Positions 11,045 through 27,536 of a stretch of DNA of 64,000 nucleotides are shown here, piece after piece. How positions within the stretch are numbered: the stretch's first letter is position 1; each line of letters starts with the position of its first letter. The notes under the pieces are model-generated. The model did no database searches. It had not been told where the DNA came from and saw only the letters and a program-made list of their open reading frames with translations. The translations under genes were made by a program, and so were the position numbers. Source of the DNA: Xenophilus aerolatus (GTDB lineage: Bacteria > Pseudomonadota > Gammaproteobacteria > Burkholderiales > Burkholderiaceae_C); contig QAIB01000004.1 in assembly GCA_030418545.1 (NCBI GenBank), positions 62,001-126,000 of the forward strand. Reading direction: 5' to 3'.

Positions 11045-11773
11045 TCAGCGGCCCGCGTGCCGCGCGAGGTGCACCTGGTGCAAGGTGATCTTGCGCACCT
11101 CGGACTGGCTGGTCTCGATGTGCGCGCGCAGCAGCATCGCGGCCTGGTCGCCGCGGTTGGCGCGGATGGCCTTGAGGATCTTGGCGTGTTCGTCGTAGGT
11201 GGCGGCGATGCGCGGCTGCTGCGTGAAGTCGAGCCGGCGGATGATGCGGATGCGCTCGGTCACGTCGCGGTGCACGCGGGCCATCTCGGCATTGCCGGCC
11301 GCCTCGACCAGCGCGCAATGAAAGGCCTCGTCCCACTGCGCCACCTGCACGCCGTCGGTGCTGCGATCGGCCACCGGCACCAGCCAGATGCCCATCAGCG
11401 AGTCCAGCAGCGCGCGGTCGATGCGGCGGTCGCTCTCGCAGAGGCGATGCACCGCGGTGGTCTCCAGCACCATGCGCAGGTCGTAGAGCTGCTCGAACTG
11501 GTCGAAGTCGAAGGGCAGCACCCGCCAGCCGCTGCGGAACAGCACCTCGACGAAGCCCTCCTGCTGCAGCCGGAAGAGCGCCTGGCGCACCGGTGTGCGC
11601 GAGACGCCCAGGCGTTCGCTGATCTCGTTCTCGGTGAAGCGGTCGCCGGGCACGAGCGTGAACTCGGCGATGTCGCGCTTGAGCTGGGCATGGACCTCGT
11701 CGGCGCGCGAGCGGAAGGCGCCGCCGTCGTCCGGGGTTGATCGGCGGGGAGGGCGCAGGACGGTGGACACCAC
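11045..11773 (-). CDS. GntR-family (FCD-type) transcriptional regulator of the ureide locus
   Basis: About 242 residues. The N-terminal GntR winged helix contains RFTENEISERLGVSRTPVRQALFRLQQEG. The C-terminal all-helical FCD domain carries the DLRMVLETTAVHRLCESD motif and His residues suited to metal or ligand binding. No ATG fits, so a GTG at 11773 or 11770 is proposed, giving VSTVLRPPRR. It is the last gene of the minus-strand cluster, 14 bp after the cysteine hydrolase. FadR/VanR-type regulators bind TTGTAT-like palindromes. The CTTG-GATA-CAAG sites at 19147 and 25683 are therefore its probable operators. Confidence 0.88.
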   Translation of the reverse strand: MVSTVLRPPRRSTPDDGGAFRSRADEVHAQLKRDIAEFTLVPGDRFTENEISERLGVSRTPVRQALFRLQQEGFVEVLFRSGWRVLPFDFDQFEQLYDLRMVLETTAVHRLCESDRRIDRALLDSLMGIWLVPVADRSTDGVQVAQWDEAFHCALVEAAGNAEMARVHRDVTERIRIIRRLDFTQQPRIAATYDEHAKILKAIRANRGDQAAMLLRAHIETSQSEVRKITLHQVHLARHAGR

Positions 11774-11787
11774 GGGATGGTACGCGC

Positions 11788-12453
11788 TCAGCCCGCGGCC
11801 AAGGCGGCATGCAGCGCGGCGCTGGGCGCCGTCCAGCCGACGATCGCGCCCTGCGCACGGATCATCTCGACCGCCGCCGCCTTGAAGTGCGGGAAGTAGC
11901 TCTCGGTGCAGTCTTCGAGCAGCAGGCCCTCGTAGCCGCGGTCGTTGGCCTCGCGCATGGAGGTCTGCACGCACACCTCGGTCGTCACGCCGCCGAACAG
12001 GAGGTGCGTGATGCCGCGCGAGCGCAGCAATTCGTGCAGGCCGGTGGCGTAGAACATGCCCTTGCCGGGCTTGTCGATGACGAGCTCGCCGGGGGCCGGC
12101 GCCAGCGCGTCGATGATCTGGTTGCCCGGCTCGCCGGCCACCAGGATGCGTCCCATGGGACCGAGGTCGCCGATGCGCAGGCTGGGATTGCCGCGCGTGC
12201 GCTTGGCGGGCGGGCAGTCCGACAGGTCGGGCCGGTGCGCCTCGCGCGTGTGCACCACCAGGCCGCCGGCCGCGCGCCAGGCCGCCAGCACCGCCTGCGT
12301 CGCGGGCACGATGGCCTCGAGCAGCGACACGTCGTTGCCCAGCGTCTCGCCGAAGCCGCCGGGCTCGATGAAGTCGCGCTGCATGTCGATCAGCACCAGC
12401 GCCGTGTGCGGCAGCTCGAACTCGTAGGCGAAGGGTTGGGCATCGATCTTCAT
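11788..12453 (-). CDS. Isochorismatase-like cysteine hydrolase, candidate triuret/biuret-type amidohydrolase
   Basis: A 221-residue cytoplasmic cysteine hydrolase. The predicted triad is Asp23 (VLIDMQRDF), Lys128 ([10 protein letters not shown]) and Cys161 ([19 protein letters not shown]). It shares the EAHRPDLSD and [11 protein letters not shown] blocks with the biuret hydrolase homologue at 14076 but is clearly divergent. The family hydrolyses ureides, including biuret (BiuH), triuret (TrtA) and ureidoacrylate (RutB). Its position in the same operon as a BiuH-like gene and allophanate genes makes triuret hydrolase an attractive guess, but specificity is unproven. Its ATG directly abuts the ABC ATPase stop. 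Confidence 0.85.
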
Positions 12454-14079
12454 TCAGTGCGCTCCTCCGCCCATGAAGGCGCCGAGCTCGTGGCGGTCCG
12501 CGGTGGCCGCGACGGTCTCGTGCACGATGCGGCCTTCGCTCATGACGACGATGCGGTCCGACAGCTCCAGCAGCTCGTCCAGGTCCTCGCTCACCAGCAG
12601 CACCGCACCGCCCTGGTTGCGCACCTGCACGATGCGGCCGTGGATCTCGGCCACGGCCGCGAAGTCCAGGCCGAACACCGGGTTGGCGGCGATGAGCACG
12701 TTGATCTCGCCGGCCAGCTCGCGCGCCAGCACCGCGCGCTGCACGTTGCCGCCCGACAGGCTCTTGATCGGCGCGCCCTCGCCCTGCGTCTTCACGCCGT
12801 ACTCGGCGATCCATTCGCGGGCGCGGCGCTTCCACTGGCCGAAGCGAAGCAGGCCGCCCGAAGCCAGCGGCGGCTGGTCGAAGTCGCGCAGCGCCATGTT
12901 TTCGGCCACGCTCAACTCGCCGACGCAGGCGTTGCGCAGCGGCTCCTCGGGCAGGCTGCGCACCTTGAGCGCGCGGTTCTCGGCGCGCTTGGCGGTGTAG
13001 GGCTGGCCCATGACGCGCACCGTGCCGCCGGCGCGCGGGCGCTGGCCCACCAGCGCCTCGACCAGCTCGCGCTGGCCGTTGCCCGACACCCCCGCCACCC
13101 CGAGGATCTCGCCCGGCCGCACCGCGAGGCTCAGGCCGTCGACAGCCAGGGTGCCGCGGTCACCCTCGGCTTTCAAGCCTTGCACGTCCAACGCGGGAGC
13201 CGCATCGTTTGCCCCTGATTTGATAGCGTCCCGCGCAGACGGGACGGGCGCTTCAGCCCGATTCGGCACCGAATCCGCAGCATGGTGCTCGGCCGCCGTC
13301 TCGCCTTCGGGCGGTGGTGCGACGCCCTCGCCCATCATGGCCTGCGCCAGGCGACGCGGGTCGGTGTCGGCCACGCGGGCATGGTGCACCGCCTTGCCCC
13401 GACGCAGCACGGTCACGGCGTCGGCATAGCCCATCACCTCGCGGAACTTGTGCGTGATGATGAGCACGGTGCACAGCCCGCTCCTGGCGAACTCGCGCAC
13501 GTGGCCCAGCACCTCGTCGGCCTCCTGCGGCGTCAGCACCGACGTCGGCTCGTCCAGGATCAAGAGGCGCGGGCGCAGGTAGAGCTGCTTGAGCAGTTCG
13601 AGCTTCTGCTTCTCGCCCGCCGCCAGCTCGGCCGGCCGGGCGTCGAGGTCGAGCGTGAAGGGCGTGGTCGCGAGGAACTCCTTCAGCCCGGCGCGCTGCG
13701 CCTTCCAGTCGATCAGCGCCGGTGTCTTGCCGCCGGCCAGCAGCAGGTTCTCGGCCACCGTCATGCCCGGTGCCAGCGTGAAGTGCTGGTAGACCATGCC
13801 GATGCCCAGCTGGCGCGCGACGATCGGGTTGGCGATGTCCTGCTCGCGCCCGTCGATGAGGATGCTGCCCTCCTCCGCGCGCTGGAAGCCGGCCACGCAT
13901 TTCACGAGCGTGCTCTTGCCCGCGCCGTTCTCGCCCAGCAGCGCGTGCACGGTGCCGGGCTCCACGTGCATCGTCACGCGGTCCATCGCGGTGAAGCTGC
14001 CGAAGCGCTTGGTCAGCTCGTAGGTGTCGAGCGCGAGCGCACCGGCGGCGCGTGCGGGGGTGGCGACGGGGGCGATCAT
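12454..14079 (-). CDS. BMP-type ABC importer ATPase (two fused nucleotide-binding domains)
   Basis: A 541-residue sugar/nucleoside-type ABC ATPase with two domains. The first has Walker [10 protein letters not shown] near residue 45 and [15 protein letters not shown]. The second has a degenerate Walker A ([16 protein letters not shown]) and signature [17 protein letters not shown]. It powers uptake with the permeases at 15893 and 16810 and the BMP protein at 17986. The ATG overlaps the upstream hydrolase stop (ATGA). The inter-domain linker, [20 protein letters not shown] and flanks, is encoded by a copy of the interspersed repeat (13209-13264) that keeps the reading frame, an unusual insertion. 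Cargo is probably a nucleobase-like or ureide compound. Confidence 0.9.
13209..13264. repeat. Interspersed AGCTATCAA repeat, copy B, inside a coding sequence
   Basis: Read on the minus strand, this stretch has AGCGCCCGTCC, a G/C-rich centre and CGCTATCAAATCAGG, the same block order as the intergenic copy D at 45080. It lies in frame within the ABC ATPase gene, between the two ATP-binding domains, and encodes roughly 18 linker residues. Nothing else in the ATPase family predicts these residues, so an insertion is the simplest reading. Confidence 0.65.
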
Positions 14080-14801
14080 GGCTGCAGGGCCGCGATCAAC
14101 GCGGTGGATGTGGCATGTGCCCCGAACACCCCACCCTGCATCGTGATCATCTTCAGCGCCGCCGCATGGTTGCCCGGGTCGGTCGCGGCCGTGCAGTCCG
14201 ACAGCAGCAGGCACTCGAAGCCGCGGTCGTTGGCGTCGCGCATCGTCGTGTGCACGCACACGTCGGTGGTGATGCCGGTGAGCACGATGTTGCGGATGCC
14301 GCGGGTGCGCAGGATCATCTCCAGGTCGGTGGCATAGAAGGAGCCCTTGCCCGGCTTGTCGATCACGATCTCGCCGTCGACGGGGGCCAGCTCGGGAATG
14401 ATCTCCCAGCCCGGCTCGCCGCGGATGAGGATGCGCCCGCAGGGCCCGTCGTCGCCGATGCCCACGCCGTCCTGCCCGATCTGGCGCGAGCGCCAGCGCT
14501 TGTTGGCCGGCAGGTCCGACAGGTCGGGCCGGTGGCCCTCGCGGGTGTGGATGATGGTGTAGCCCAGCGGCCGCATCACAGCCAGCAGGCGTCGGATGGG
14601 TTCGATCGGCGCCTGCGTGAGCGAGATGTCGTAGCCCATCACGTCGACGTACCCGCCCTTGCCGCAGAAGTCGGTCTGCATGTCGATGACGATGAGCGCC
14701 GTGTTGTCGGGCCGCAGGTCGCCGTCGTAGGGCCAGCGGTAGGGCTCGGCGGCGGCGAAGCGCGGCGCGGCGGCGGGGGTCGGTGTCGTCGTGGCGTCCA
14801 T
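14076..14801 (-). CDS. biuH: Biuret hydrolase-like cysteine hydrolase
   Basis: A 241-residue isochorismatase-superfamily amidohydrolase. BiuH converts biuret to allophanate and ammonia. The sequence agrees strongly with my memory of Rhizobium BiuH over most of its length: [72 protein letters not shown]. The triad fits Asp40, a Lys in DKPGKGSF (149 or 152) and Cys182 ([17 protein letters not shown]). It lies four bases after the amidase stop and overlaps the ATPase start by ATGA. The allophanate product would feed the AtzF-like enzyme at 23925 in the same locus. Confidence 0.87.
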
Positions 14802-14805
14802 CTTT

Positions 14806-15870
14806 TCAATCCAGCGTCTTGAGCCGTTCCTTCTCGGGCACGTCGGGCGCCGGCGGCGGCACCAGCGGGTGCGAGCCCGCGCCGCCGTACAGCCTCACCG
14901 GGGCCGGGAAGCCGCAGGACGTGCCGTCGGTGACCTGCACCTTGTCGCTCCACGGCAGCCGGTAGCGGCCGGCCGCCATGTCCTGCATGTAGGTGTAGGG
15001 GCAGTCCTGGGCGCCGCCCTTCACCGCCACGTAGCCGCGGTGGTAGAGCTGGTAGATGTTGTTCTCCACGCCCCAGCCGGTGCGCGCCTCGCGCACCAGG
15101 TCGGGCCGCAGCTCGGCGGTGATGATCTCGTCGGGCCGGCCGCCGCCCTCCACCATCACGGTGCCGTCGAAACTGCAGAACATGCCCTCGCCCATCGAGT
15201 CGAAGGTGCCGTCGCTGCCGCACATGCAGACGCTGGCGGTGTAGGCCAGGTTGCAGAAGGCGTTGGCCTGGTTGGTGATCTTCCAGGCGTGGCGGATCGG
15301 CGCCGTGTAGCCGGCGGTGCGCAGGATGATCTCGGCGCCCTTGTACGCCGCCTCGCGCGCCATCTCCGGGAACATGCCGTCGTGGCAGATGATGAGCGAC
15401 AGCTTGCTGCCGTTGGGCCCGTCGCACACCGGCACGCCCAGGTTGCCGGGCTCCCACGGCTCCACCGGCACCCAGGGGTGCAGCTTGCGGTAGTAGAGGC
15501 GGATCGCGCCCTGGTCGTCGATGACGAGGCCGCTGTTGTACGGGTTGCCGCCGGGGTTGGCCTCCATGATGGAGAAGCAGCCCCAGATGCGGTGCTCGAC
15601 ACAGGCCGCACGGAAGGCCGCCACTTCGGGGCCGTCCAGGCTGCACATGATCTCGGGGTTGGTGTCCATCGAGAGGCCGTGCAGCGAATACTCCGGGAAG
15701 ACCACCAGGTCCATGGTCTGCTGATTGCGCCGGGCCTTGCCCACCAGCTCGCAGATGCGCTGCGTCTGCGCCGCGAGCTGCTCGCGCGTGGCCACCACCG
15801 GCAGCTGCAGCTGCACCAGCCCCACCACCACGCCATTTGCCGATTTGTTGAGACCGCCCAGGCCGCTCAT
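14806..15870 (-). CDS. Formamidase/aliphatic amidase of the nitrilase superfamily
   Basis: A 354-residue C-N hydrolase that would release ammonia from a short amide. The catalytic Glu60 ([10 protein letters not shown]), Lys129 ([14 protein letters not shown]) and Cys162 ([20 protein letters not shown]) are all present. The layout is closest to AmiF formamidase, including [18 protein letters not shown] and the C-terminal DKVQVTDGT segment. A specific ureide or formamide substrate cannot be read from sequence. The start at [10 protein letters not shown] was chosen because it matches the family N-terminus. It sits between the permease and biuH-like genes in one operon, so a formyl- or carbamoyl-amide intermediate of the pathway is plausible. 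Confidence 0.88.
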
Positions 15871-15892
15871 GGGTGCATTCCTTGTGTTGTGT

Positions 15893-16813
15893 TCATCGCG
15901 TCGACGACAGCTCGCCCGGGCTGCCGGCCGCGACCTTGCCCGGCCGGCAGGTGGCCACGAGGATGACCAGCGTGAGCACGTACGGCACGGTGTTGAAAAG
16001 GTGGTAGCCCCAGCCCACGCCGATGGACTGCAGGGCCGGCCCGATGGCGCCGGCGCCGCCGAAGAGCAGCGCCGCATAGACGCAGCGCAGCGGACTCCAG
16101 CGCGCGAAGATCACCAGCGCGACCGCGATCAGGCCCTGGCCGCTGGAGATGCCCTCGTTCCAGCTGCCGGGGTAGAAGAGCGTGAGCGACGCACCGCCCA
16201 GACCGGCGATGGCGCCGCCCGCGGTCGTCGCTGCGATGCGCAGGCCCGACACCGAGTAGCCCAGCGCCCGCGTGGCGTTGGCCGAGTCGCCCGCCATGCG
16301 CACCAGCAGGCCGGCGCGCGTGCGGGCGAAGCCCCACCACAGGCCCAGCGCCAGCAGCAGGCCGATGGGCACCAGCGCGTTGACCTGCAGCGCCGCGCGC
16401 ACCGCGCTGTTGTCGCTCCAGTTGCCCAGCGCGATGGCCGGCAGCTGCGGCGCCTGCGGCTGGATCAGCGGCTTGCCCAGGTAGAAGGCCAGCCCGGTGC
16501 CCAGCAGCATCAGCGCGATGCCGGTGGCCACGTCGTTGACGCCGTTGAGCGAGCACAGCAGGCCGTGCAGCAGCGCCAGCATCGCGCCGGCGCAGGCACC
16601 CACCAGCACGCCGATCCAGGGCGAGCCGCTCCAGTAGGCACCGCCGAAGGCCGCCATGGCCGACAGCACCAGCACGCCTTCGAGGCCGAGGTTGATGCGG
16701 CCCGACTTCTCGGTCAGGCATTCGCCCAGGCTCACGAAGAGAAAAGGGGCGCCCACGCGCAGCGCGCCGCCGACGATCGCGGCGACCAGCGCCACCCATT
16801 GCTCCGCGGTCAT
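15893..16813 (-). CDS. BMP-type ABC importer permease (second subunit)
   Basis: A 306-residue integral membrane protein of the BPD_transp_2 family (about eight to nine hydrophobic segments). It has the characteristic GRINLGLEGVLVLSAMAA motif near residue 40 and GLRIAATTAGGAIAGLGGA in the coupling region. It pairs with the permease at 16810 to form the pore of the nucleoside/BMP-type importer. Its ATG overlaps the upstream permease stop by four bases. In-frame extension upstream is not needed, since MTAEQWVALVAAIVGG matches the usual N-terminus. Confidence 0.9.
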   Translation of the reverse strand: MTAEQWVALVAAIVGGALRVGAPFLFVSLGECLTEKSGRINLGLEGVLVLSAMAAFGGAYWSGSPWIGVLVGACAGAMLALLHGLLCSLNGVNDVATGIALMLLGTGLAFYLGKPLIQPQAPQLPAIALGNWSDNSAVRAALQVNALVPIGLLLALGLWWGFARTRAGLLVRMAGDSANATRALGYSVSGLRIAATTAGGAIAGLGGASLTLFYPGSWNEGISSGQGLIAVALVIFARWSPLRCVYAALLFGGAGAIGPALQSIGVGWGYHLFNTVPYVLTLVILVATCRPGKVAAGSPGELSSTR

Positions 16814-17970
16814 GCGTACACCTCCTTGCCTGACGAGGGCGCCCCGCGCCGCTGCGGCGTGCCGGCATCGGGGCCGGCCGCGCGCGGAGGCAGCTGTTCC
16901 AGTTCCTCGAAGGGCCGCGCGAAGAGCTTGGCGGCCACCGCCTTGCCGGTGGTGCCGCGCAGCGCCTCGCTGGCCAGGATCAGCACGAAGGCGATGCCCT
17001 GCAGCACCTGCACCGACGCGTCGGGCAGGCCCAGCCGGCGCTGCAGCAGGCTGCCGGCGGCGCCGAAGCCGCCGAAGAGGATGGCCACCGGGATGACGGC
17101 CAGCGGGTTCTGCCGCGCGATGAACGCGACCAGGATGCCCGCATAGCCATAGCCCGCGATCAGCGAGGCATTCGCGTTGGTGTGCACCGCCGCCACCTCG
17201 ACCGCACCCGCCAGGCCGGCGCAGGCGCCGCCCAGCGCGCAGGCCAGCAGGATCAGGCGGTTGGCCGGCAGGCCCACCAGCTGGGCGGTGCGCGGGTTGC
17301 CGCCCACCACGCGGATCGAGAAGCCCGAGGCCGTGACCCGCAGCCACAGCCCCAGGCCGATGCAGGCCACGACGCCCAGCACCAGGCCCCAGTGCACGTC
17401 CGAGCCGGCGATGCCGCCGATGCGCAGGCCCTCGGCCAGCGCATAGGTGGAGGGCTTGTTGAGGCTGGCCGGATCGCGCAGCACGCCCTCGACCAGGTGC
17501 TTGAAGATGCCGATGGCGATGTAGGCCAGCAGCAGGCTGCTGATCGTCTCGTTGATGCCGCGGTATTGCCGCAGCCAGCCAGCGAGCACGATCCACAGTG
17601 CGCCCGCCACGGCACCGGCGAGGCAGACCGCGGCGGTGCCGACGATGTTCGCGGGCAGCGGCACCAGGTAGGCCATGGCCGCGCAGGCCAGCCCGCCCAG
17701 CACCAGCGCCCCTTCGCCGCCGATGATGACCAGCCCCGCGCGTGCCGGAATGGCGACGCACAGCGCGGTGAGCATCAGCGGCGCCGCGCGCTGCAGCGTG
17801 TTCTGCCACGAGAACCAGCTGCCGAAGGCGCCCTGGAACAGCACCGACCAGGCCTCCACCGGATCGGCGCCCGCGGCGATGGCCACGAACAGGCCGAAGA
17901 TCAGCAGCGCGGCCGCGATGGCCAGCACGGGCAGCAGGGCTTCACGCAGGGCGGCGCGCATGCCGGTCAT
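16810..17970 (-). CDS. BMP-type ABC importer permease (first subunit)
   Basis: A 386-residue BPD_transp_2 permease with about nine to ten membrane segments. It contains IIGGEGALVLGGLACAAMAYL and GINETISSLLLAYIAIGI, typical of the larger permease of the NupB/YufP type. A charged C-terminal tail (residues about 355-386) is cytoplasmic. It lies between the BMP binding protein (15-bp gap) and the second permease (ATGA overlap), which completes a standard BMP-permease-permease layout with the ATPase displaced three genes downstream. Confidence 0.9.
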   Translation of the reverse strand: MTGMRAALREALLPVLAIAAALLIFGLFVAIAAGADPVEAWSVLFQGAFGSWFSWQNTLQRAAPLMLTALCVAIPARAGLVIIGGEGALVLGGLACAAMAYLVPLPANIVGTAAVCLAGAVAGALWIVLAGWLRQYRGINETISSLLLAYIAIGIFKHLVEGVLRDPASLNKPSTYALAEGLRIGGIAGSDVHWGLVLGVVACIGLGLWLRVTASGFSIRVVGGNPRTAQLVGLPANRLILLACALGGACAGLAGAVEVAAVHTNANASLIAGYGYAGILVAFIARQNPLAVIPVAILFGGFGAAGSLLQRRLGLPDASVQVLQGIAFVLILASEALRGTTGKAVAAKLFARPFEELEQLPPRAAGPDAGTPQRRGAPSSGKEVYA

Positions 17971-17985
17971 TCCGCCTGAGATCGA

Positions 17986-19098
17986 TCAACCAATCGAACC
18001 CATCACACCTTCGACCAGGTAGTTCATTTTTTCCAGTTCCAGGTCGGTCTGCTTCTGCACCTGGCCGGCGGCGATGACTTCCTTGCCCTTGTTGTCCTTG
18101 AGCGGACCCTTGAAGATGTCGAAGCTGCCCGCGATCATCCTGGCCTTGATGTCGTCGGCCTGCTTCTTGGCGGCGTCGGTCACCATGGGGCCGTAGGCGG
18201 AGGTCTTCACGTAGCCTTCCTTCAGGCCGCCGCGCAGGAAGTTCGGGTGCGGCTTGCCGGCGCGCGCCGCGTCGATGATGGTCTTGTACGCGGTGAGCCA
18301 GTTCCACTCGGCCCCGGTGAGGTAGGCGTTGGGCGCCAGCTTGGCCTGGCTGGCGTGGTAGCCGCACACCATCTTGCCGCGCTTGGCCGCCGTCTCGACC
18401 ACCACCTTGGGGCCGTCCACGTGCATGGTGAAGACGTCGCAGCCCTGGTCGGCCAGGCTGTTGGTGGCCTCGGCCTCCTTCACCGCCATCGACCAGTCGC
18501 CGGTGAAGATCACGCTGCAGGTGATGCCCGGCTTGACCGAGCGCGCGCCGAGTGTGAAGGCGTTGATGTTGCGCAGCACCTGCGGGATCGGCTTGGCCGC
18601 CACGAAGGCGATCTTGTTGCTCTTGGTCATGTGCGCCGCGACCACGCCGTTGAGGAACTGGCACTCGTCGATGTAGCCGAAGAAGCTGCCCACGTTCTTG
18701 GGGTTCTTCTCGGTCCACAGGCCGCCGCAGTGCGAGAAGCGCACGTCCGGGTTCTTCGGCGCCACGGCGAGGATGTGCGGGTCGAAGTAGCCGAAGGAGG
18801 TGGGGAACAGCAGCGATGCACCGTCCTGCTGGATCATCCCGGTCATGGTCTTCTGCACGGCCGCGGTCTCGGGCACGTTCTCTTCCTCGACCACTTTCAC
18901 GCCGGGCATCTTCTTGACCTCGGCAGCCGCCTGCGCGTGCGCCTGGTTGTAGCCGTAGTCGTCGCGCGGGCCGACGTAGATCACACCCACGGTGAGCGGC
19001 TTCTGCGCCCGCGCCAGCGGGCTGAGCATGCCGAGGCTGCCGGCCGCGCCGAGGGCGGCCAGGGACTTGAGGGAATCGCGGCGGTTGAACTGGCTCAT
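17986..19098 (-). CDS. BMP-family periplasmic substrate-binding protein
   Basis: A 370-residue binding protein of the Bmp/Med family, usually nucleoside or purine specific. The N-terminus SQFNRRDSLKSLAALGAAG resembles a Tat signal, with cleavage after ARAQ near residue 32. The mature part shows VGVIYVGPRDDYGYNQAHAQ, FPTSFGYFDPHILAVA and FFGYIDECQFLNGVVAAHM, typical of the family. It is the first gene of the lower part of the ureide locus. Its promoter region carries the CTTG-GATA-CAAG operator 49 bp upstream of the ATG. The ligand may be a ureide or purine derivative. Confidence 0.9.
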   Translation of the reverse strand: MSQFNRRDSLKSLAALGAAGSLGMLSPLARAQKPLTVGVIYVGPRDDYGYNQAHAQAAAEVKKMPGVKVVEEENVPETAAVQKTMTGMIQQDGASLLFPTSFGYFDPHILAVAPKNPDVRFSHCGGLWTEKNPKNVGSFFGYIDECQFLNGVVAAHMTKSNKIAFVAAKPIPQVLRNINAFTLGARSVKPGITCSVIFTGDWSMAVKEAEATNSLADQGCDVFTMHVDGPKVVVETAAKRGKMVCGYHASQAKLAPNAYLTGAEWNWLTAYKTIIDAARAGKPHPNFLRGGLKEGYVKTSAYGPMVTDAAKKQADDIKARMIAGSFDIFKGPLKDNKGKEVIAAGQVQKQTDLELEKMNYLVEGVMGSIG

Positions 19099-19146
19099 GG
19101 ATTGGCTCCGGAAGAAGGATGCGCCGGCGGCGCGGAACGGTTCAAT

Positions 19147-19158
19147 CTTGGATACAAG
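19147..19158. promoter_or_regulatory. Putative GntR operator upstream of the BMP binding-protein gene
   Basis: The 12-mer CTTGGATACAAG has inverted arms CTTG/CAAG. It is identical to a 12-mer at 25683-25694, upstream of the other transcription unit of the same locus. The half-sites resemble TTGTAT-type sites bound by FCD-class GntR regulators, and such a regulator is the last gene of the cluster. The site lies in the 111-bp gap between the AtzH-like gene and the BMP gene. Confidence 0.6.
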
Positions 19159-19209
19159 CCAGTACGCATAACGCGTGCCAGCTCTGGACGGCTCCTACGG
19201 GCGGCTGCT

Positions 19210-19596
19210 TCAGTCCAGCAGGCTCACATGCGCCGCCACCACGCGCCAGCCTTGTGCGGTGCGTATCCAGGCCTGGCTCTGGCGCCCCGTTCGGGTGCTG
19301 CCTTCGCGGCGGAATTCGCAGTTCGCGGTGGCGCAGTCGCGGCCGTAGGTGGTGATCTCCACGCGCAGCAGGTCGCGCATCAGCCCCTGCGCGGGGCGCG
19401 CGGCGCGAAACGCGGCGATGGCCTCGTAGCCGTAGAGGTTCTCGGTCGCGCCGTAGCGCAGGGTGTGCGGGCTGTTCCAGAACAGGGCGTCGAGGATCTC
19501 GACCTTGTTGTGCACCAGCGCGTCCTCGTAGAGCGCGAAGGCGGCGCGCACCTCGGCCAGCACGTCGGGCAGGTTGATGTCGGCGATGTCGATCAT
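19210..19596 (-). CDS. atzH: AtzH/HpxZ-like small protein (DUF3225, NTF2-like fold)
   Basis: A 128-residue protein with the DUF3225 pattern [30 protein letters not shown] and [14 protein letters not shown]...[11 protein letters not shown]. As I recall, AtzH of the s-triazine pathway decarboxylates 1,3-dicarboxyurea to allophanate, and HpxZ relatives accompany oxalurate amidases. The gene overlaps the AtzE-like gene by ATGA, which supports a common pathway step. The start [11 protein letters not shown] was taken because the overlap is exact. The alternative role is oxalurate catabolism. Confidence 0.78.
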
Positions 19597-21032
19597 GTCG
19601 GGCTCTTTTCCAGGTCGGCGACCGGCGCCTGGGTGACGCCGGCACGTTCCAGCGCCGCGGCGACGCGCAGCGCGAGGTCCTCGCGCCAGGGGGCGGCAAT
19701 CACCTGCACGCCGATGGGCAGCGCGGCATGGGCGCCCCACACAGGCACCGCGGCCACCGGCAGGCCGATGCAGGAGATGGGCTGCGTCAGCACGCCCATG
19801 TTGGGGCGCAGCGGCAGGCGCTGGCCGTCGAGCTTGAAGAACTCGGTGCCGATGGGCGTGGCGGCGCAGGGCGTGGCCGGCGCCAGCAGAATGTCGAAGC
19901 GGCCGAAGACGCGCGCCGCCTCTTCGGCGTAGCGCTGGCGCACGCGCTGCGCGCGCGCCACCCAGGCCGCCGGCAGCAGCGCACCGGCCAGGAAGCGGTC
20001 GCGCGACAGCGGCTCGAAGTCCTGCGGCCGGCGGCGCAGGTCGGGCAGGTGCAGCGCGGCGCCTTCGGCGTTGGTGATGAGGAACGCCGCCGCCCGGCCG
20101 GCCTCCACCAGCGGCAGTTCGACCATCTGCCGTGCGCCCAGCGCCTGGGCCACGATGTCGACGGCAGCGATGGCCTCGGGCTGTGCCCACTGGCGAAACC
20201 ACCCGCCCAGCACGCCGATGCGCAGGCCTTCGGCGCCGCGCTCGAGCAGCGGCGCGACGGCCTCGACCGGCCGCTGCGCGCAGCCGGGATCGCGCGGCGC
20301 GCGCATCTCGGGGCCCTGCAGGGCGTCGTAGCACAGGGCCAGGTCGCGCACGGAACGGGCGAAGGGGCCCAGGTGATCCAAGCTGGCCACGAAGGGGTAG
20401 CTGCCGGTGCGCGGCAGCCGGCCGAAGGTGGGCTTGAGGCCGTAGACGCCGTTGAGCGAGGCCGGCACGCGGATGGAGCCGTTGGTGTCGGAGCCCAGCG
20501 CCAGCGGCACCTGGCCCGCCGCCACCGCGGCGCCGGAGCCACCCGAGGAACCGCCGGCGATGCACGCCAGGTCGTGCGGGTTGCGACAGGGGCCGACGTG
20601 GCTGTTCTCGGTGGTGAAGCCGTAGGCGTACTCGTCCATGTTGAGCGCGCCGAGCAACACCGCGCCGGCCTGCTCCAGCCGCCGCACCAGCAGGCCATCG
20701 GTGCGCGCGGGCGCCGCCGTGCGCTCGATCTTCGAGCCGGCCAGCGTGGGCAGGCCGGCGACGTCGAACAGGTTCTTGACCGCGAAGGGCACGCCCAGCA
20801 GCGGCAGCGCGCGTGCCCGATCGGCCGAGGGGCCGGCCAGCGCGGCATCGACCTGCGCGGCGCGCCGCAGCGCGCGCGGCCCGACCACGTCGGTGAAGGC
20901 GTTGACGCGCGCATCGGTCGCTTCGATGCGCGAGAGCGCCGCCTCGGCCAGCGCCACGGCGCTCAGCGCGCCGCTGCGCACCGCCTCGGCCATGGCGGCC
21001 GCATCCTGGCGCAGCCACTCCGCGGGCGTCAT
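19593..21032 (-). CDS. atzE: AtzE-family amidohydrolase (1-carboxybiuret hydrolase type)
   Basis: A 479-residue amidase-signature enzyme with the triad Lys86 ([11 protein letters not shown]), cis-Ser in GGSSGGS (160-166) and nucleophile Ser186 ([22 protein letters not shown]). AtzE with its small partner AtzG hydrolyses 1-carboxybiuret to 1,3-dicarboxyurea in cyanuric acid breakdown. The [20 protein letters not shown] stretch fits that family rather than GatA. It overlaps AtzG-like and AtzH-like genes on both sides by ATGA, the same company it keeps in s-triazine degraders. No cyanuric acid hydrolase gene is visible nearby. Confidence 0.83.
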
Positions 21033-21232
21033 TCGGCGGGCTCCGGCGGCACGGGCACGAAGCTCACCGCGCTCTCGTGGTGCGGCTCGAGCGGCACCGC
21101 CTCGACCAGGGCCGCGAAGCCGGCCGCCAAACCGAAGTAGCGCAGCACGCCGGGGCGGTGGTCACTGCGCAGCGGCAGGCCCAGCGCGGCGGCGGTGGCG
21201 TCCACGTACTTCTCGGCCTCTTGCGGAGTCAT
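21029..21232 (-). CDS. atzG: AtzG/HpxX-like small subunit (DUF4089)
   Basis: A 67-residue helical protein beginning [20 protein letters not shown], then [19 protein letters not shown]. This matches the AtzG/HpxX pattern of a GatC-like helical partner that binds and completes an AtzE-type amidase. Its ATG overlaps the ABC ATPase stop and its stop overlaps the atzE ATG. A gene this small is easily missed. It is supported by exact coupling on both sides and by the family motif. Confidence 0.82.
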
Positions 21233-22062
21233 CGCCGCACCTCGCGCTGGAAGATCTCCAGGCTCAGCTTCTTCATCGCGACGAAGCTGGGCGAGCTGAG
21301 CGTCTCCAGGGTGCGCGGCCGCGCGTCGCCGTAGCGCAGGATCTCGGCCACCTTGGTCGGCCGCTTGGTCAGCAGCAGCACCTGGTCGGCCAGGTACACC
21401 GCCTCCTCGAGGTCGTGCGAGACCAGCAGCATGGTGGTGCCGGTCTGCATGAAGACCTCCTGCAGCTTCTCGCGGATGAAGAGCGTCATCTCGAAGTCGA
21501 GCGCCGAGAAGGGCTCGTCGAGGAACAGCACCTCGGGGTTGGGCGCGAGCGCCCGCATGATCGAGGCCGTCTGCTGCTGGCCGCCCGAGAGCTCGTAGGG
21601 ATAACGGTTGAGGTCGAACTTGACGTCGAAGCTGGCCACCAGCTCGGCCATGCGGCGGTCCACCTCGGCCTTGCTGCGGCCTTCGAGCTTGAGCGGGTAG
21701 GCGATGTTGTCGATGGTGCGCATCCACGGGAACATCGCTTCGCGGTAGTTCTGGAACACGTAGCCGATCTTGGTGTCCTTCAGGCTCTTGCCGTCGAACA
21801 GGATCTCGCCGCGGTCGATCGGGATCAGCCCCGCGATCATGTTGATCAGCGTCGACTTGCCGCAGCCGTTGGGGCCGAAGACCGAGACGATCGCGTGCTT
21901 GGGGATGTCGAGGTCGAAGTTCTCGTACAGCGGCCAGCCGGCGAAGTACTTGGTCAGTCCGCGGATCGTGATGTGCGTGCCGGCGGGGCCGGGCGCGAAC
22001 TTCGGCTTGGGAACGTCCGCGTAGACCGGACCGTTCAACACGATGTCTGCAGCCATTTTCAT
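21229..22062 (-). CDS. ABC importer ATPase, taurine/nitrate/sulfonate type
   Basis: A 277-residue ATPase with Walker A FGPNGCGKSTLINMIAG, Q-loop VFQNYREAMFPWMRT, signature LSGGQQQTASIMRAL and Walker B EVLFLDEPFSALD. It is the energy subunit for the permease at 22059 and the binding protein at 22890. The start MKMAADIVL at 22062 is preferred because its ATG overlaps the permease stop; MAADIVL at 22056 is the alternative. The NrtD/SsuB/TauB family imports small anionic or amide solutes, here presumably a ureide or carboxylated ureide. Confidence 0.9.
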   Translation of the reverse strand: MKMAADIVLNGPVYADVPKPKFAPGPAGTHITIRGLTKYFAGWPLYENFDLDIPKHAIVSVFGPNGCGKSTLINMIAGLIPIDRGEILFDGKSLKDTKIGYVFQNYREAMFPWMRTIDNIAYPLKLEGRSKAEVDRRMAELVASFDVKFDLNRYPYELSGGQQQTASIMRALAPNPEVLFLDEPFSALDFEMTLFIREKLQEVFMQTGTTMLLVSHDLEEAVYLADQVLLLTKRPTKVAEILRYGDARPRTLETLSSPSFVAMKKLSLEIFQREVRR

Positions 22063-22886
22063 CTTCCGCTCCAGTGGACGATCTTGCGTTCCGCGACGAG
22101 GAACAGGATGTTCAGCGCGTAACCCAGCGCACCCGCCGCGAGGATCGAGGCGTACATGCTCTTGACGTTGAGCACCTGCTGCGAATTGATGATGCGGTTG
22201 CCCAGGCCCGAGTCGGCGCCGATGAACATCTCGGCCACGATCACGATCACCAGCGCCATCGACACGGCCGAACGTAGGCCGACGAAGCTGGGCTGCAGGC
22301 TTTCCCACACCAGCACGTCGCGAAAGGTCTGCCAGCGCGTGGCGCCCATCACCTTGGCCGCCATCACGCGCTGCTTGCGCGCGTTGATCACCCCGTAGGC
22401 ACTGTTGAACACCACGATCAGCAGCGCGCCGAAGGCCGCGATGGCGACCTTGTTCACGTCCGAGGTGCCGAAGATCATGAGGAACAGCGGGATCAGCGCC
22501 GAGCTGGGCGTGGAGCGGAAGAAGTCGATCAGGAACTCCACGCTGCGGTACGCCTTCTCGTTGCTGCCCAGCAGCACGCCCAGCGGCACGCCGACGATCG
22601 CGGCGATCAGGAAGGCCTGCAGCGTGCGCCACACCGTCACCAGGAAGTCCGACAGCAGCGGCCCGCCGGCCAGGCCGGTGATGAGCGTGCTCACCGTGTC
22701 GGCCGGTGCCGGCAGCAGGATGGGCTTGATGAAGCCCAGCCGCACGACCAGGTCCCAGACGATGAAGAGTGCCACCGGCCCGATGGCCGGCAGCAGGCGC
22801 TGAAGGAGCGGGGTCTTCGGTGCGGCGCTCCCCGTGGCGGCCGGGGGCGTCCAGGGCGTGGCGGTGGTGGTGCTCGCGTCGGCCAT
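22059..22886 (-). CDS. ABC importer permease, taurine/nitrate/sulfonate type
   Basis: A 275-residue permease of the BPD_transp_1 family with about six membrane segments. The EAA-like coupling loop lies around AAKVMGATRWQTFRDVLVWESLQPS. The N-terminal 28 residues are Ala/Thr/Pro-rich and cytoplasmic. It is four bases downstream of the binding-protein stop and overlaps the ATPase start, so the three form one unit feeding the amidase genes. Confidence 0.9.
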   Translation of the reverse strand: MADASTTTATPWTPPAATGSAAPKTPLLQRLLPAIGPVALFIVWDLVVRLGFIKPILLPAPADTVSTLITGLAGGPLLSDFLVTVWRTLQAFLIAAIVGVPLGVLLGSNEKAYRSVEFLIDFFRSTPSSALIPLFLMIFGTSDVNKVAIAAFGALLIVVFNSAYGVINARKQRVMAAKVMGATRWQTFRDVLVWESLQPSFVGLRSAVSMALVIVIVAEMFIGADSGLGNRIINSQQVLNVKSMYASILAAGALGYALNILFLVAERKIVHWSGR

Positions 22887-22889
22887 GGC

Positions 22890-23876
22890 TCAGCCCTTGT
22901 ACAGAAGGCCGTCCACCGTCACCTTCTTCTCGAAGATGCCCTTCTCGGTGAACAGGTCGTAGAACTTCTGGAAGTAGGCCGCGTCGCTGGCCTTGAACTC
23001 GTTGTAGAGCATGTACGAGGCCAGCGGCACCTCGTTGGTGAGCGCGCCCTCGATGGCGGTGTAGCCCTTCATGTACTGACGTGCCTCGGCCGGCTGCGTG
23101 CGCACGAACTCCACGCCCTTGGCGTAGGCGGCGATGTACTTCTTCGCGAGCTCCGGGTTCTTCTTGATGAAGTCGGTCGTGAGGCTGGCCGCGCCGCCGT
23201 GCCAGGGCGCCATCGGGTCGCCCAGGATGTAGTGCGCCACCACGCCGGCCTCCAGCACGCGGGTGGTGCCGTTGAGGCGGCCCACGGTGCCCGTCGGTTC
23301 CAGCGTGTACACGGCATCGACCTGGCCGGCCGCCAGCGCCGCCACGTGCTGGCCGATGGGCAGCTCGGTCACGGCGATGGTGCCGGCACCGGCACGCTCC
23401 AGCATGGTCTTGGCCAGCGTCACGTTCTGGATGCCGGGGCCGGAGGCGACCTTCTTGCCCTTGAGCTCGGCCACGCTCTTGATCGGGCTGTCCTTGGGCA
23501 CCAGGAACTCCTCCAGCACGAACTTCGCGTTGCTCGGGTTGGTGCAGAAGATCTTGAACAGGCCGGGCTGCGCGATCTCGCCGATGGCCAGGTTGGCCGA
23601 GCCGGTGCCGTTGGCGCTGCCGTCGCCGCGGCCGGAGAGCATCGCCTCCATGACCTGCTGAGCACCCGCGAACTTCAGCGGCTCGACGTCCAGGCCCGCC
23701 TCCTTGAAGAAGCCCTTCTCGACCGCGGCGAAGAAGGGCAGTCCGGCGGCCACGGGCCAGTAGCCGATGCGGATCTTGGTCGCCTGCGCGCGCACGATGG
23801 CGGGCGCGGCGAGCACGGCCAGCGCGGCGCTGCCGGTCTGCAGCAGTTGCCGGCGCGAAGGACGGGAAAGGGACAT
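22890..23876 (-). CDS. ABC importer periplasmic binding protein, SsuA/TauA-like
   Basis: A 328-residue solute-binding protein. The N-terminus SLSRPSRRQLLQTGSAALAV looks like a twin-arginine signal, cleaved near AIVRAQ at residue 31. The mature domain shows IRIGYWPVAAGLPFFAAVEKGFFKEAGLDVEPL and SVAELKGKKVASGPG, typical of the NMT1/SsuA group. It is located between the allophanate hydrolase gene (48-bp gap) and the permease. Its ligand is probably the substrate of the linked amidases rather than a sulfonate. Confidence 0.88.
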   Translation of the reverse strand: MSLSRPSRRQLLQTGSAALAVLAAPAIVRAQATKIRIGYWPVAAGLPFFAAVEKGFFKEAGLDVEPLKFAGAQQVMEAMLSGRGDGSANGTGSANLAIGEIAQPGLFKIFCTNPSNAKFVLEEFLVPKDSPIKSVAELKGKKVASGPGIQNVTLAKTMLERAGAGTIAVTELPIGQHVAALAAGQVDAVYTLEPTGTVGRLNGTTRVLEAGVVAHYILGDPMAPWHGGAASLTTDFIKKNPELAKKYIAAYAKGVEFVRTQPAEARQYMKGYTAIEGALTNEVPLASYMLYNEFKASDAAYFQKFYDLFTEKGIFEKKVTVDGLLYKG

Positions 23877-23924
23877 GGCAAGGACTCCTGTACGTCTGCG
23901 TTTGGAAAAGAAGAAGGCGGTGCC

Positions 23925-25667
23925 TCAGCCGGCAGTCCGGCTGCGCATGTAGGCGCGCCAGCCGCCGTGGTGGGTGATGTCCTGTGCGCCCGCGAGGGCC
24001 TGCGCTTCGCAGAGGAAGCCCTGCACCGTCGAGCCGTCGGCCAGCGTCAGCGTCCCGATGCCCAGCGGCGCCGGGATGAGCGCGACGAAGCTGCCGTAGT
24101 GCGCGGCGGGCAGCTCCCACACCTCCAGCGCAATGGCGGCGCCCTCGCCCGCCGCGGCGCGGATCAGGCCGGGCTTGGGCGGCGTCGTGCCGGGCAGCGC
24201 GAAGAGGCGGTAGTCGGGCGCGGTGTGCGTGGCCTGCAGCAGGCGGCCGCCGCGCTCCTGCAGCTGCACGTTCAGCGGCATGCCCGACAGGTGCGCGCCG
24301 ACCACGGCCACGCGCACCGTCGGCCCCTGGACCGGCGGCTGCGGCAGCGCCTGCGCCGGCGGCAGCGGCTGGCCGGTGGCGCCCAGCGGCAGCCCGCTGG
24401 CCTGGTGGTAGCGCTGGCCCAATGCGGCGAGCGCGAAGTCGCTGCCGGCCGGGCCGATGAAGGTCACGCCGAAGGGCAGCCCGTCGGGACGCAGGCTGGA
24501 CGGCACCGAGATCGCGGCGTAGTCCAGCAGGTTGACGAAGTTGGTGTACACGCCCATGCGGCTGTTGCGCGCCACCGGGTCGGCCTGCATGTCGGCGATG
24601 GTGCAGTGCGTGGGCGCCGTGGGCACCATCAGCACGTCGATGCCGTCCCACATGCCGGCCGCCTGCTGGCCCAGCGCGCGCAGGCGCGTCAGCGCAGCGA
24701 CATGATCGGCGGCGCCGTAGCCGGTGCCCTGGGCGAGGATGCCGCGCACCGGCTCCATCACCGCCTCCGGATGCGCGTCGAAGAAGGGGCGCACGGCGGC
24801 GTAGCGCTCGGCCACCAGCGCACTGTCGTAGAGCAGCGCCGCGGCCTCGGCCAGCGGCGCGTAGTCGATCTCCACCGGCGTGCCGCCCAGCGCCTGCAAC
24901 TGCTCGATGGCCGCGTCCCACGCCGCCTCGGCCTGCGCGTCGCCGAAGAAGGCGCGCAGCGAAGGCACGCCGAAGCGAAAGCGCGCGGGCCAGTGCGCCG
25001 GTGCCAGTGCAAGCGTGCGCGAATAGGGGTCGCCCGCATCGGGCCCCAGGGCTGCGGCCAGCACCTGCGCGGCCAGCTCGACCGTGCGCGCGAAGATGGA
25101 CACGCAGTCCACGCTCTGCGCCGCCGGCACCACGCCGCGCGCGCTCAGCAGGCCGCGCGTCGGCTTGATGCCGACGATGTTGTTCAGCCCCGCCGGCACG
25201 CGGCCCGAACCGGCCGTGTCGGTGCCCAGGGCGAAGTCGACCTCGCCGGTCGCGACGACGTAGGCCGAGCCGGAGCTGGACCCGCCCGACACGTAACGCG
25301 CGTCGAAGCTGTTGGGCACGGCGCCGTAGGGCGAGCGCGTGCCGTTCAGGCCGCAGGCGAACTGGTCGAGGTTGGTCTTGCCGGCGACCGACGCACCGGC
25401 GTCCAGCAGTCGCTGCACCACCGTGGCGTGGGTCGGCGCCAGGTAGGCGAAGGCCGGACACGCCGCCGTGGTCGGCAGGCCGGCGACGTCGATGTTGTCC
25501 TTGACGCCGAAGCGCAGGCCGGCGAGCGGACCCGAGGCTGCGCCGGCGATGGGAGCGGCCGGGCGGCTGATCCACGCCGCCTCGGGGCGACCGTCGCGCG
25601 AGACATCGGGAACAGGGACCGACGCAGGCATCGGCTTCGCGGCGGGGAGAGGGAGTTCGTGCACCAT
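23925..25667 (-). CDS. atzF: Allophanate hydrolase (AtzF/DUR1-type)
   Basis: A 580-residue two-domain protein. The amidase-signature domain (about 1-420) has Lys56 (FGVKDNIDVAGLPTTA), GGSSSGS at 128-134 and nucleophile Ser154 (GTDTAGSGR). The C-terminal domain (about 450-580) contains VAVVGAHLSGMPLN and YGSFVALIPAPLGIGTLTLADG, the cyclotransferase-like domain of AtzF that finishes decarboxylation. The reaction is allophanate to two ammonia and CO2. It is the first gene of the upper transcription unit and has the CTTG-GATA-CAAG operator 16 bp upstream of the ATG. The ribosome-binding site is weak. Confidence 0.92.
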   Translation of the reverse strand: MVHELPLPAAKPMPASVPVPDVSRDGRPEAAWISRPAAPIAGAASGPLAGLRFGVKDNIDVAGLPTTAACPAFAYLAPTHATVVQRLLDAGASVAGKTNLDQFACGLNGTRSPYGAVPNSFDARYVSGGSSSGSAYVVATGEVDFALGTDTAGSGRVPAGLNNIVGIKPTRGLLSARGVVPAAQSVDCVSIFARTVELAAQVLAAALGPDAGDPYSRTLALAPAHWPARFRFGVPSLRAFFGDAQAEAAWDAAIEQLQALGGTPVEIDYAPLAEAAALLYDSALVAERYAAVRPFFDAHPEAVMEPVRGILAQGTGYGAADHVAALTRLRALGQQAAGMWDGIDVLMVPTAPTHCTIADMQADPVARNSRMGVYTNFVNLLDYAAISVPSSLRPDGLPFGVTFIGPAGSDFALAALGQRYHQASGLPLGATGQPLPPAQALPQPPVQGPTVRVAVVGAHLSGMPLNVQLQERGGRLLQATHTAPDYRLFALPGTTPPKPGLIRAAAGEGAAIALEVWELPAAHYGSFVALIPAPLGIGTLTLADGSTVQGFLCEAQALAGAQDITHHGGWRAYMRSRTAG

Positions 25668-25682
25668 ATCAATGCATCCAGA

Positions 25683-25694
25683 CTTGGATACAAG
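25683..25694. promoter_or_regulatory. Putative GntR operator upstream of allophanate hydrolase
   Basis: CTTGGATACAAG, identical to the site at 19147-19158. It lies 16 bp before the start codon, so a bound repressor would cover the transcription start or block early elongation. Finding the same 12-mer at the heads of both transcription units is the main evidence. Confidence 0.62.
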
Positions 25695-25844
25695 ATGCGA
25701 TGCAAGCGGCGTGCCATGCCCGGCCGCTGCGCGTGGCCGGCTCTTCCCTGCCGAACCGTTGCGCCCCGCCCCGCCCCGGCACCCGGCGGATCGGTGATGG
25801 TGCCGATGCCCTGGCGTCTCGCCCGCAGGGCGCGGCGCAGGCGA

Positions 25845-26978: not shown

Positions 26979-27536
26979 TTGAAGCCCCTCCAACCCTTGC
27001 AACTGCAGTTCAGCCACATCGGGCTGTACGTCACCGACCTCGCCCGCATGGCCGGCTTCTACAAAGAGGCGCTGCGCTTCACCCAGACCGACGCGGGCGA
27101 CCTGGGCCCGGTGCAACTGGTCTTCCTGAGCCGCGACCCGAACGAGCACCACCAGCTGGTGCTGGCCACCGGCCGGCCGGCGGACATGGCCTTCAACGTG
27201 GTCAACCAGCTGTCCTTCCGCGTGCCCGACCTCGCGACCCTGCGCGCGTTTCACGACCGACTGCTGGCCGAGGGCGCGAGCGAGATGCTTCCGGTGACGC
27301 ACGGCAACGCCGTCTCCGTCTACTGCCGCGATCCGGAGGGCAACCGGCTTGAGCTCTTCATGGACACGCCCTGGTACTGCGACCAGCCGCTGCGCGAGCC
27401 CATCGACCTTGCGCAGTCCGACGAGGCCATCCTGGCGCAGGCCGAGGCCATCGCGAAGCGCTTCCCCAAGTTCATGAGCCGCGCCCAGTGGCAGGCCGAG
27501 GTCGCCCGCCGCATGCAGGAAGACCAGCGTGTCTGA
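26979..27536 (+). CDS. VOC-family protein, probable extradiol dioxygenase-like enzyme
   Basis: A 185-residue single vicinal-oxygen-chelate domain protein. It starts QFSHIGLYVTDLARMAGFYKEALRF and ends the fold with VYCRDPEGNRLELFMDTPW. The His of FSHIGL and the Glu of NRLELF are the expected metal ligands. Family members cleave catechols or isomerise related compounds. A TTG start at 26979 with GGAGA five bases upstream is chosen over the ATG at 26928, which would lie at the promoter. It overlaps the hydroxylase gene by eight bases, supporting sequential hydroxylation and ring opening. Confidence 0.8.
   Translation: MKPLQPLQLQFSHIGLYVTDLARMAGFYKEALRFTQTDAGDLGPVQLVFLSRDPNEHHQLVLATGRPADMAFNVVNQLSFRVPDLATLRAFHDRLLAEGASEMLPVTHGNAVSVYCRDPEGNRLELFMDTPWYCDQPLREPIDLAQSDEAILAQAEAIAKRFPKFMSRAQWQAEVARRMQEDQRV

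Follow-up and report, generated by a model that had tools for sequence, protein, structure and literature searches.

The window analyzed here, a 64,000-nucleotide stretch of Xenophilus aerolatus DNA (contig QAIB01000004.1), carries on its minus strand a block of 15 genes, all running in one direction from position 25667 to 11045, that we read as a nitrogen-starvation operon for triuret and biuret, with a probability of roughly 0.8. Gene identities, diagnostic residues, synteny and a promoter/operator match, all taken from the sequence, point this way. In order, the genes encode AtzF, SsuA, SsuC, SsuB, AtzG, AtzE, AtzH, BMP, NupB, NupC, AmiF, BiuH, NupA, TrtA and GntR (Table 1). Neighbors overlap by 4 bp at six of the 14 junctions—the ‘mostly ATGA overlaps’ of the first-pass annotation overstated the matter—and at the other eight are separated by gaps of 0, 3, 4, 15, 17, 22, 48 and 111 bp. 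The widest gap, between AtzH and BMP, contains a promoter-like site. In other respects that annotation anticipated the layout well: all of the genes it named lie on the one strand; the two ATP-binding cassette importers are indeed different, one an SsuABC/NMT1-type set and the other a BMP–NupABC-type set; its formamidase-like amidase, AmiF, passes a curated formamidase model (571 bits against 406); and the ladder of ureide breakdown that it proposed, from triuret and biuret to ammonia, is well supported by the sequence.

Two of the genes encode cysteine hydrolases, both taken at first to be of the biuret-hydrolase type. Cysteine hydrolases they are, but one is BiuH and the other TrtA. The 241-amino acid (aa) protein shares 74.9% identity with Rhizobium BiuH (6AZO) and scores 421 bits against the BiuH equivalog model NF050097 (cut-off 370). 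The 221-aa protein scores 257 bits against that model and is 67.9% identical to Herbaspirillum TrtA (6XIX) and 50.0% to 6AZO; residues, model cut-off and best structure agree in making it a TrtA, and the idea of two biuret hydrolases is abandoned. RutB was considered for both and rejected (106 and 126 bits against a model cut-off of 378), and so the comparison with BiuH, TrtA and RutB that the annotation had suggested assigns one protein to each of the first two and neither to the third.

Individual residues tell the same story. TrtA of the window retains the catalytic Asp24, Lys129 and Cys162 and the substrate-binding Glu72, Lys132 and Gln202. At the six positions picked by Tassoulas et al. 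2020 (PMC7948467; papers are cited here from the sections consulted) to discriminate TrtA from BiuH, it keeps five TrtA-type residues—Phe35, Asn41, Glu160, Tyr187 and Ile205—and has Met for Ala134 at the sixth; BiuH of the window has the BiuH-type residue at all six (Tyr, Tyr, Asp, Thr, Val and Ser). Across 54 TrtA rows and 24 BiuH rows, these states separate almost perfectly. The odd rows are that of locus L088, whose states deviate and whose catalytic cysteine is also missing, two from L090, apparently a single TrtA split between reading frames, and those of L069, L078 and L087, with single changes at position 134.

The block is no one-off; it is a recurrent type of operon, with close variants in Variovorax and its relatives. 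Window TrtA has matches at E ≤ 1e-40 in 58 of 399 genomes of the order, BiuH-type proteins included, and 132 loci were sampled by way of TrtA: 52 stretches from the order genomes and 80 contigs (the best 80 of at least 578 relatives). This sample favors close relatives and possibly counts some species twice, and many loci end at contig ends or at limits of 10–20 kb, such that all counts of absent genes given here are upper bounds. BiuH is also encoded in 94 of the 132, and these share a conserved core, BMP–NupB–NupC–(AmiF)–BiuH–NupA–TrtA, in which NupA separates BiuH from TrtA every time (94 of 94) and BMP occurs in 88. Besides the core, 41 loci have AtzE, 30 have an AtzH-like gene but no AtzE, and 23 have neither. 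The order of the window from SsuB or SsuC through GntR, AmiF included, recurs in Variovorax (L107, L109, L126), Xenophilus (L098) and Pseudorhodoferax (L132), in all of which the flank covered stops short of AtzF. Hydrogenophaga L103 and Ramlibacter L134 have AtzF–AtzGEH–BMP–NupBC–AmiF–BiuH–NupA–TrtA–GntR without SsuABC. All 15 genes together were found in no fetched locus, mainly on account of flank length.

The substrates in vivo, and what is transported, we infer to be as follows. The BMP-type importer, and perhaps the SsuABC-type importer too, would bring ureides into the cell. TrtA would deaminate triuret to 1-carboxybiuret; AtzEG would deaminate this, before it falls apart, to 1,3-dicarboxyurea; AtzH would decarboxylate that to allophanate; and AtzF would release the last ammonia. 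BiuH would take imported biuret as well as biuret from carboxybiuret that has decarboxylated by itself, and so no dead-end intermediate should remain. Published chemistry is the basis for this scheme: TrtA converts triuret to carboxybiuret, the lifetime of which is about 20 min (PMC7948467), and the reactions of AtzEG and AtzH are established for the atrazine plasmid pADP-1 (PMC6219798). Two routes onward from carboxybiuret are thus predicted, AtzEG followed by AtzH, or spontaneous decarboxylation followed by BiuH, and the window, which has an AtzE-family amidase with an adjoining AtzG-like partner gene, appears equipped for both. Loci L082 and L087 encode TrtA, AtzE and AtzH (L087 also AtzF), with no BiuH in the 20-kb stretch or among those genomes’ matches; their triuret route may bypass biuret altogether. 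Entry by way of cyanuric acid was rejected for the window. The first-pass annotation had seen no cyanuric acid hydrolase, and a family search for AtzD/TrzD finds none in the 47 contigs of the genome; the same search detects AtzD in both of two records that hold it.

This pathway would be governed by two sigma-54 promoters, one ahead of atzF and one ahead of BMP, at each of which a GntR operator overlies the predicted start of transcription; expression should then need both low nitrogen and relief from GntR. The first site, TGGCACGCCGCTTGC upstream of AtzF, matches what we take to be the sigma-54 pattern at every position, and CTTGTATCCAAG starts 22 bp from its first base. The gap between AtzH and BMP holds a sigma-54-like site with one mismatch and, at the same 22 bp, an operator identical to CTTGTATCCAAG. 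So placed, the operator would overlie the point at which sigma-54 transcription should begin, as the site of a repressor would. The obvious candidate to read it is the GntR/FCD protein that closes the block, and the arrangement suggests control by sigma-54 and by this GntR. The composite of promoter and operator occurs at 21 sites in the 132 loci, 15 of them directly before BMP, five before AtzF and one unassigned (L045); in L042 and L044 it stands on both of two divergent units. Five Markov-resampled control sets yielded 0, 1, 0, 0 and 0 composites, and the other 16 spacings, from 14 to 30 bp, 0 to 6 sites each. This wiring looks like a new detail: among the matches listed in one literature search, no paper joins triuret with sigma-54. 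GntR genes in such clusters are named in the Figure 6 legend of PMC12625717.

What the importers carry can be guessed at from one of them. The closest solved relative of the BMP protein is AtzT (6pi5), which binds guanine. Tyr45, Ser97, Phe98 and Trp194 of the AtzT pocket are kept in the window, and Glu165 has become Gln, Asn218 His and Asn220 Asp. Among 98 BiuH-linked BMPs, Gln165 is found in 91, and His218 and Asp220 in 97 each, Asp220 alone being also common in the few distant BMPs compared. A pocket of this kind would suit a ligand that is flat and smaller, biuret or triuret for instance. SsuB/SsuC-type genes also lie beside AtzE in L236, L239 and L240; no TrtA is seen in these 4.4-kb stretches, and the genomes they come from (G152, G138 and G237) have no TrtA-type match.

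AtzH bears on the choice between the two predicted routes. Window AtzH retains Tyr22, Arg46, Arg63, Arg66, Arg73, Arg96, Gln106 and Gln108. The catalytic Tyr22 and Arg46 are kept in 87 of 87 AtzH-like proteins, and Arg66 (pADP-1 AtzH numbering) follows AtzE: it is present in all 53 AtzHs encoded beside AtzE, the window’s included, and absent from 32 of 34 AtzH-like proteins without an adjacent AtzE. In the two exceptions, the stretch ends within about 0.5 kb of AtzH (L145), or AtzE lies about 5 kb away (L193). Other columns, 71 and 53 for example, also differ by AtzE linkage, none as sharply as 66. On a tree of 53 and 32 rows, from which L145 and L193 had been dropped beforehand, the linkage label changes five times (bootstrap range 3–5; at least three changes are forced by well supported branches). 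Thus Arg66 was lost more than once, including within Variovorax (L092, L099). The AtzH trees are built on 131 columns and have many open forks, and the bootstrap of the label-change tree had not settled.

Arg66 sits in an arginine pocket to which dicarboxyurea has been docked (PMC6219798), and we read its loss as a lost grip on the second carboxylate once the substrate becomes carboxybiuret. Speaking against such a switch, Arg66 variants have been made and are not, in the sections consulted, among those with reduced effect in a coupled assay (PMC6219798). The Arg66-less genes are presumably trtB: in Herbaspirillum L169, an AtzH-like gene with Cys for Arg66 comes right after trtA, and where the text of PMC12625717 has trtB, its abstract gives atzH alongside trtA and biuH. 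Only one AtzH-like gene was found in the Xenophilus genome, and so there is no second copy to act as TrtB. This apparent switch of specificity, too, looks new, and if we are right, Arg66 offers a testable rule for which of the two routes a bacterium takes.

The formamidase travels with BiuH. What we take to be the Glu-Lys-Cys triad of AmiF, its numbering likewise assumed, is kept in 54 of 54 AmiF sequences, that of the window included. AmiF occurs in 17 of the 399 genomes of the order (E ≤ 1e-100), within 2.5 kb of BiuH in 16 of them; the exception, G286, has an AmiF copy with an internal stop codon. In a phylum sample of 299 genomes, four of them common to both samples, AmiF occurs in 13 (E ≤ 1e-80), all among the 22 with BiuH at 72% identity or more; the figure for this association, 2.6e-17, assumes independent genomes, an assumption that does not hold. 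AmiF is on the BiuH contig within 9 kb in 12 of the 13, and directly adjacent in seven. Forty of the 94 loci with trtA and biuH have AmiF, 38 of these within 200 bp of BiuH. Its place varies: mostly the NupC–BiuH interval, but after NupA in L202, and upstream of BMP in L195–L198, where, in L195 and L198, AmiF and BMP have a gene for allantoate amidohydrolase between them. In L202 (genome G119), it lies between NupA and an Arg66-less AtzH-like gene, the usual place of TrtA. This companionship, too, looks like a new detail; among the papers listed in a search of one open-access library, none combines formylurea, formamidase and biuret.

What does AmiF do in such company? Most likely, in our view, it would recover nitrogen from formamide freed when formylated ureides enter the same route: attack of the BiuH/TrtA type on a formyl-ureide would leave formamide, AmiF’s substrate, and TrtA is slightly active on formylurea. 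Such formyl-ureides could derive, for example, from 5-azapyrimidines or from oxidized purines of the oxonate type. AmiF might, instead, be a mere passenger, an independent scavenger of formamide kept nearby through shared nitrogen-starvation regulons. Its not being seen in 54 of the 94 trtA–biuH loci speaks for this and against an obligate role, and we know of no enzyme of the block that produces formamide from triuret or biuret themselves; however, a passenger need not sit so close to BiuH in nearly every AmiF genome of the order, nor keep to BiuH genomes and contigs in the phylum sample while gene orders differ, and we consider this explanation rather unlikely. The same linkage to BiuH, together with the allantoate amidohydrolase genes of L195 and L198, could also mean that other ureides—N-formylurea, N-formylbiuret or oxidized purine products—are the natural substrates, and activity on triuret and biuret is incidental. 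Formylurea is the best listed alternative substrate of TrtA, but at 0.3% of triuret: the characterized enzyme is about 340 times more active on triuret (24 versus 0.07 U/mg; PMC7948467). The residues of triuret and biuret specificity are, moreover, kept across the 54 TrtA and 24 BiuH rows with few exceptions, which makes this idea improbable.

Still less probable, we think, is that AtzG–AtzE–AtzH is an oxalurate module (HpxXYZ) inside a triuret/biuret operon, with two purine-derived substrates served in parallel. The NCBI HpxZ model does fit AtzH (204 bits against a cut-off of 135), and the oxalurate-type HpxYs of Klebsiella and Serratia fall among triuret-linked AtzEs in the AtzE tree, clustering with three of them (99/97), so that the tree leaves the substrate of AtzE unfixed. 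But the pADP-1 record likewise names its AtzH HpxZ, and the triuret-operon AtzEs are joined in the tree by pADP-1 AtzE, which bears the name carboxybiuret hydrolase and for which assays are published. There is no room in the operon for HpxW, its genes being otherwise identified, with no HpxW-directed search made here or elsewhere in the genome; and oxalurate breakdown has, to our knowledge, no use for AtzF. The Hpx resemblances nonetheless count against our triuret/biuret operon, as do several other observations. At position 134, window TrtA has Met, and Ala is the rule (51 of 54 fetched TrtA rows; A134S is harmless in TrtA, PMC7948467). AtzE is not seen in 53 of the 94 loci, part of them cut short, and so is often dispensable. 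The sigma-54 pattern alone is not rare, with 7 sites at one mismatch or fewer and 60 at two or fewer on both strands of the window, and no more than 19 of the 132 loci have the composite at the chosen cut-off. Finally, the importer ligands are guesses. With these set in the balance, a nitrogen-starvation operon for triuret and biuret stays our preferred reading.

The AtzE tree also points to the origins of the atrazine plasmid. The first such tree was sampled mostly through TrtA, and so was biased; AtzEs drawn regardless of TrtA, and that of pADP-1, were added. pADP-1 AtzE and AtzEs from the triuret operons of Comamonadaceae and related Burkholderiales share one clade, supported at 100/100. 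In the enlarged tree this clade comprises 15 triuret-linked and two AtzD-linked rows; of the latter, Pseudomonas putida L173 is the first to branch off, and pADP-1 is nested in the remainder (92/94). A pairing of pADP-1 AtzE with Ramlibacter monticola L134 as its sister (99/86) was given up, for it vanished when the length-filtered rows L106 and L110 were added; the wider clade held. By identity to pADP-1 AtzE and AtzG, L134 ranks highest (79% and 63%); ranked on bit score, AtzE and AtzH of L106 come out on top. The plasmid’s atzGE probably came from a triuret operon, the direction being unproven since the other AtzD-linked row, L173, is at the base of the clade. No common source emerges for pADP-1 AtzF, the eight best matches to which are 48–54% identical, the window’s 54%. 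It has been suggested that atzGEH pre-dates the cyanuric acid operon (PMC6219798), and the clade sharpens this suggestion. Window AtzE itself belongs to a neighboring Variovorax clade, and so the pADP-1 link is no proof of its substrate. The pADP-1 record (NC_004956) has a second, short AtzD-family match at 27041–27346.

Taken jointly, these strands suggest a broader picture, which we put forward tentatively and with the odds somewhat against it. Triuret catabolism would come in two interchangeable designs told apart by Arg66: with AtzGE, AtzH would decarboxylate 1,3-dicarboxyurea, which is doubly charged, and without AtzGE, TrtB would decarboxylate carboxybiuret, Arg66 having been lost repeatedly. 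The formamidase would be an integral, unnoticed part of biuret catabolism, implying natural formyl-ureides, and the atrazine plasmid would have taken atzGE, and probably atzH, from a triuret operon. Triuret and biuret are fertilizer by-products that reach soils with urea, and the host bacterium is related to soil Variovorax; natural sources of triuret have been called unknown (PMC7948467). The linked formamidase could be a specific hint about natural substrates, the regulatory model would tie these genes to nitrogen starvation, and the triuret operons are candidate donors of part of a well-studied plasmid operon for atrazine degradation.

Table 1. Genes and putative control sites of the block, in order from 25716 down to 11045
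Feature	Position	Strand	Evidence or remark
Sigma-54-like (−24/−12) promoter TGGCACGCCGCTTGC and GntR-type operator CTTGTATCCAAG	25683..25716	−	Before atzF; 0 mismatches to pattern
AtzF, allophanate hydrolase, 580 aa	23925..25667	−	TIGR02713, 765 bits, cut-off 511 (residues 44–574); best PDB match 4gyr
SsuA/NMT1-type substrate-binding protein, importer 1	22890..23876	−	PF09084 above cut-off; SsuA_fam below cut-off
SsuC-type permease, importer 1	22059..22886	−	Related to SaoP, SsuC and TauC, all below cut-off
SsuB-type ATPase, importer 1	21229..22062	−	Named by motif only: Walker A (GPNGCGKST) and LSGGQ in open frame
AtzG, probable carboxybiuret hydrolase small subunit, 67 aa	21029..21232	−	PF13318 AtzG-like, 47.6 bits, cut-off 24
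AtzE, amidase subunit, 479 aa	19593..21032	−	Best PDB match 6c62, E 6.8e-163; both AtzE family models above cut-off
AtzH, DUF3225 enzyme, 128 aa	19210..19596	−	Best PDB match 6bjt; PF11533, 200 bits
Second sigma-54-like site and identical operator at 22 bp	19147..19180	−	Before BMP gene; 1 mismatch
BMP-family substrate-binding protein, importer 2	17986..19098	−	PF02608; best PDB match AtzT, 6pi5
NupB-type permease, importer 2	16810..17970	−	PF02653
NupC-type permease, importer 2	15893..16813	−	PF02653
AmiF, formamidase, 354 aa	14806..15870	−	NF009803, 571 bits, cut-off 406; best PDB match 5g3o, a formamidase
BiuH, biuret hydrolase, 241 aa	14076..14801	−	NF050097, 421 bits, cut-off 370; 74.9% identity to 6AZO
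NupA-type ATPase, importer 2	12454..14079	−	PF00005; between biuH and trtA
TrtA, triuret hydrolase, 221 aa	11788..12453	−	Best PDB match 6XIX, 67.9% identity
GntR/FCD regulator	11045..11770	−	PF00392 and PF07729; candidate reader of both operators

TctC/Bug-type receptor genes flank the operon on both sides, one at 25845–26834 on the minus strand (PF03401), the other, named by eye, in a plus-strand frame ending at 11038. The former was rejected as an operon member: 177 bp set it off on the upstream side, with the promoter-like site in between, and no TctC match is seen directly before AtzF in those relatives’ loci that extend that far. The plus strand near the operon’s 3′ end encodes a flavin adenine dinucleotide-dependent monooxygenase (8763–10034), which resembles the urate hydroxylase HpxO only distantly (159 bits against a cut-off of 500) and hence is not called a urate enzyme. 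The window has no tRNA, and no Rfam match at gathering score. Farther off, a minus-strand stretch of low GC content (50704–54040; 0.56–0.60 versus about 0.70) includes a serine-recombinase-like open reading frame (52478–54040) and two ParB-like ones, all named by eye, and looks like an integrated mobile element.

To the first-pass annotation, two importers and two cysteine hydrolases in one regulon looked new. That is not borne out: the core pathway and the kind of operon are known, and the window is a combined variant with ordinary enzymes. Worth testing are the rule drawn from Arg66, the partnership with a formamidase, the pairs of sigma-54 site and operator, and the link to the plasmid. TrtA, BiuH and AtzF share one operon in Herbaspirillum sp. 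BH-1 and Rhizobium leguminosarum 3841 (Tassoulas et al. 2020, PMC7948467), as they do in the window. Herbaspirillum frisingense L169 has AtzF–SsuABC–BMP–NupBC–BiuH–NupA–TrtA, then the AtzH-like gene and GntR; no AtzE is seen there, whereas the window has AtzGEH and AmiF as well. In Comamonadaceae and other Burkholderiales, genes for ABC transporters and amidases come after atzF–ABC–atzGEH (Esquirol et al. 2018, PMC6219798)—the same order of gene types, strand and bacterial group as in the window—but the sections consulted do not identify the amidases as TrtA, BiuH or AmiF, and describe no regulation.

The ammonia-oxidizer contigs with trtA–biuH–trtB–atzF and bmpA–nupABC have TrtA, BiuH, AtzF and BmpA–NupABC in common with the window, and a GntR regulator in the figure legend mentioned above; carboxybiuret is assigned there to TrtB, and the sections consulted place no AtzGE or AmiF beside these genes, the stem ‘formamid’ being absent from the main text (PMC12625717). 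The atzDGEHF operon of pADP-1, from Pseudomonas sp. ADP, shares AtzG, AtzE (59% identical to the window’s), AtzH (67%) and AtzF, and has a BMP-type importer alongside, as the window does. Its 11-kb stretch has no BiuH or TrtA, entry is via cyanuric acid (AtzD), and the regulator is of the LysR type rather than GntR. The two operons of pADP-1 have sigma-54-dependent promoters (PMC6834077), as we propose for the two promoters of the window.

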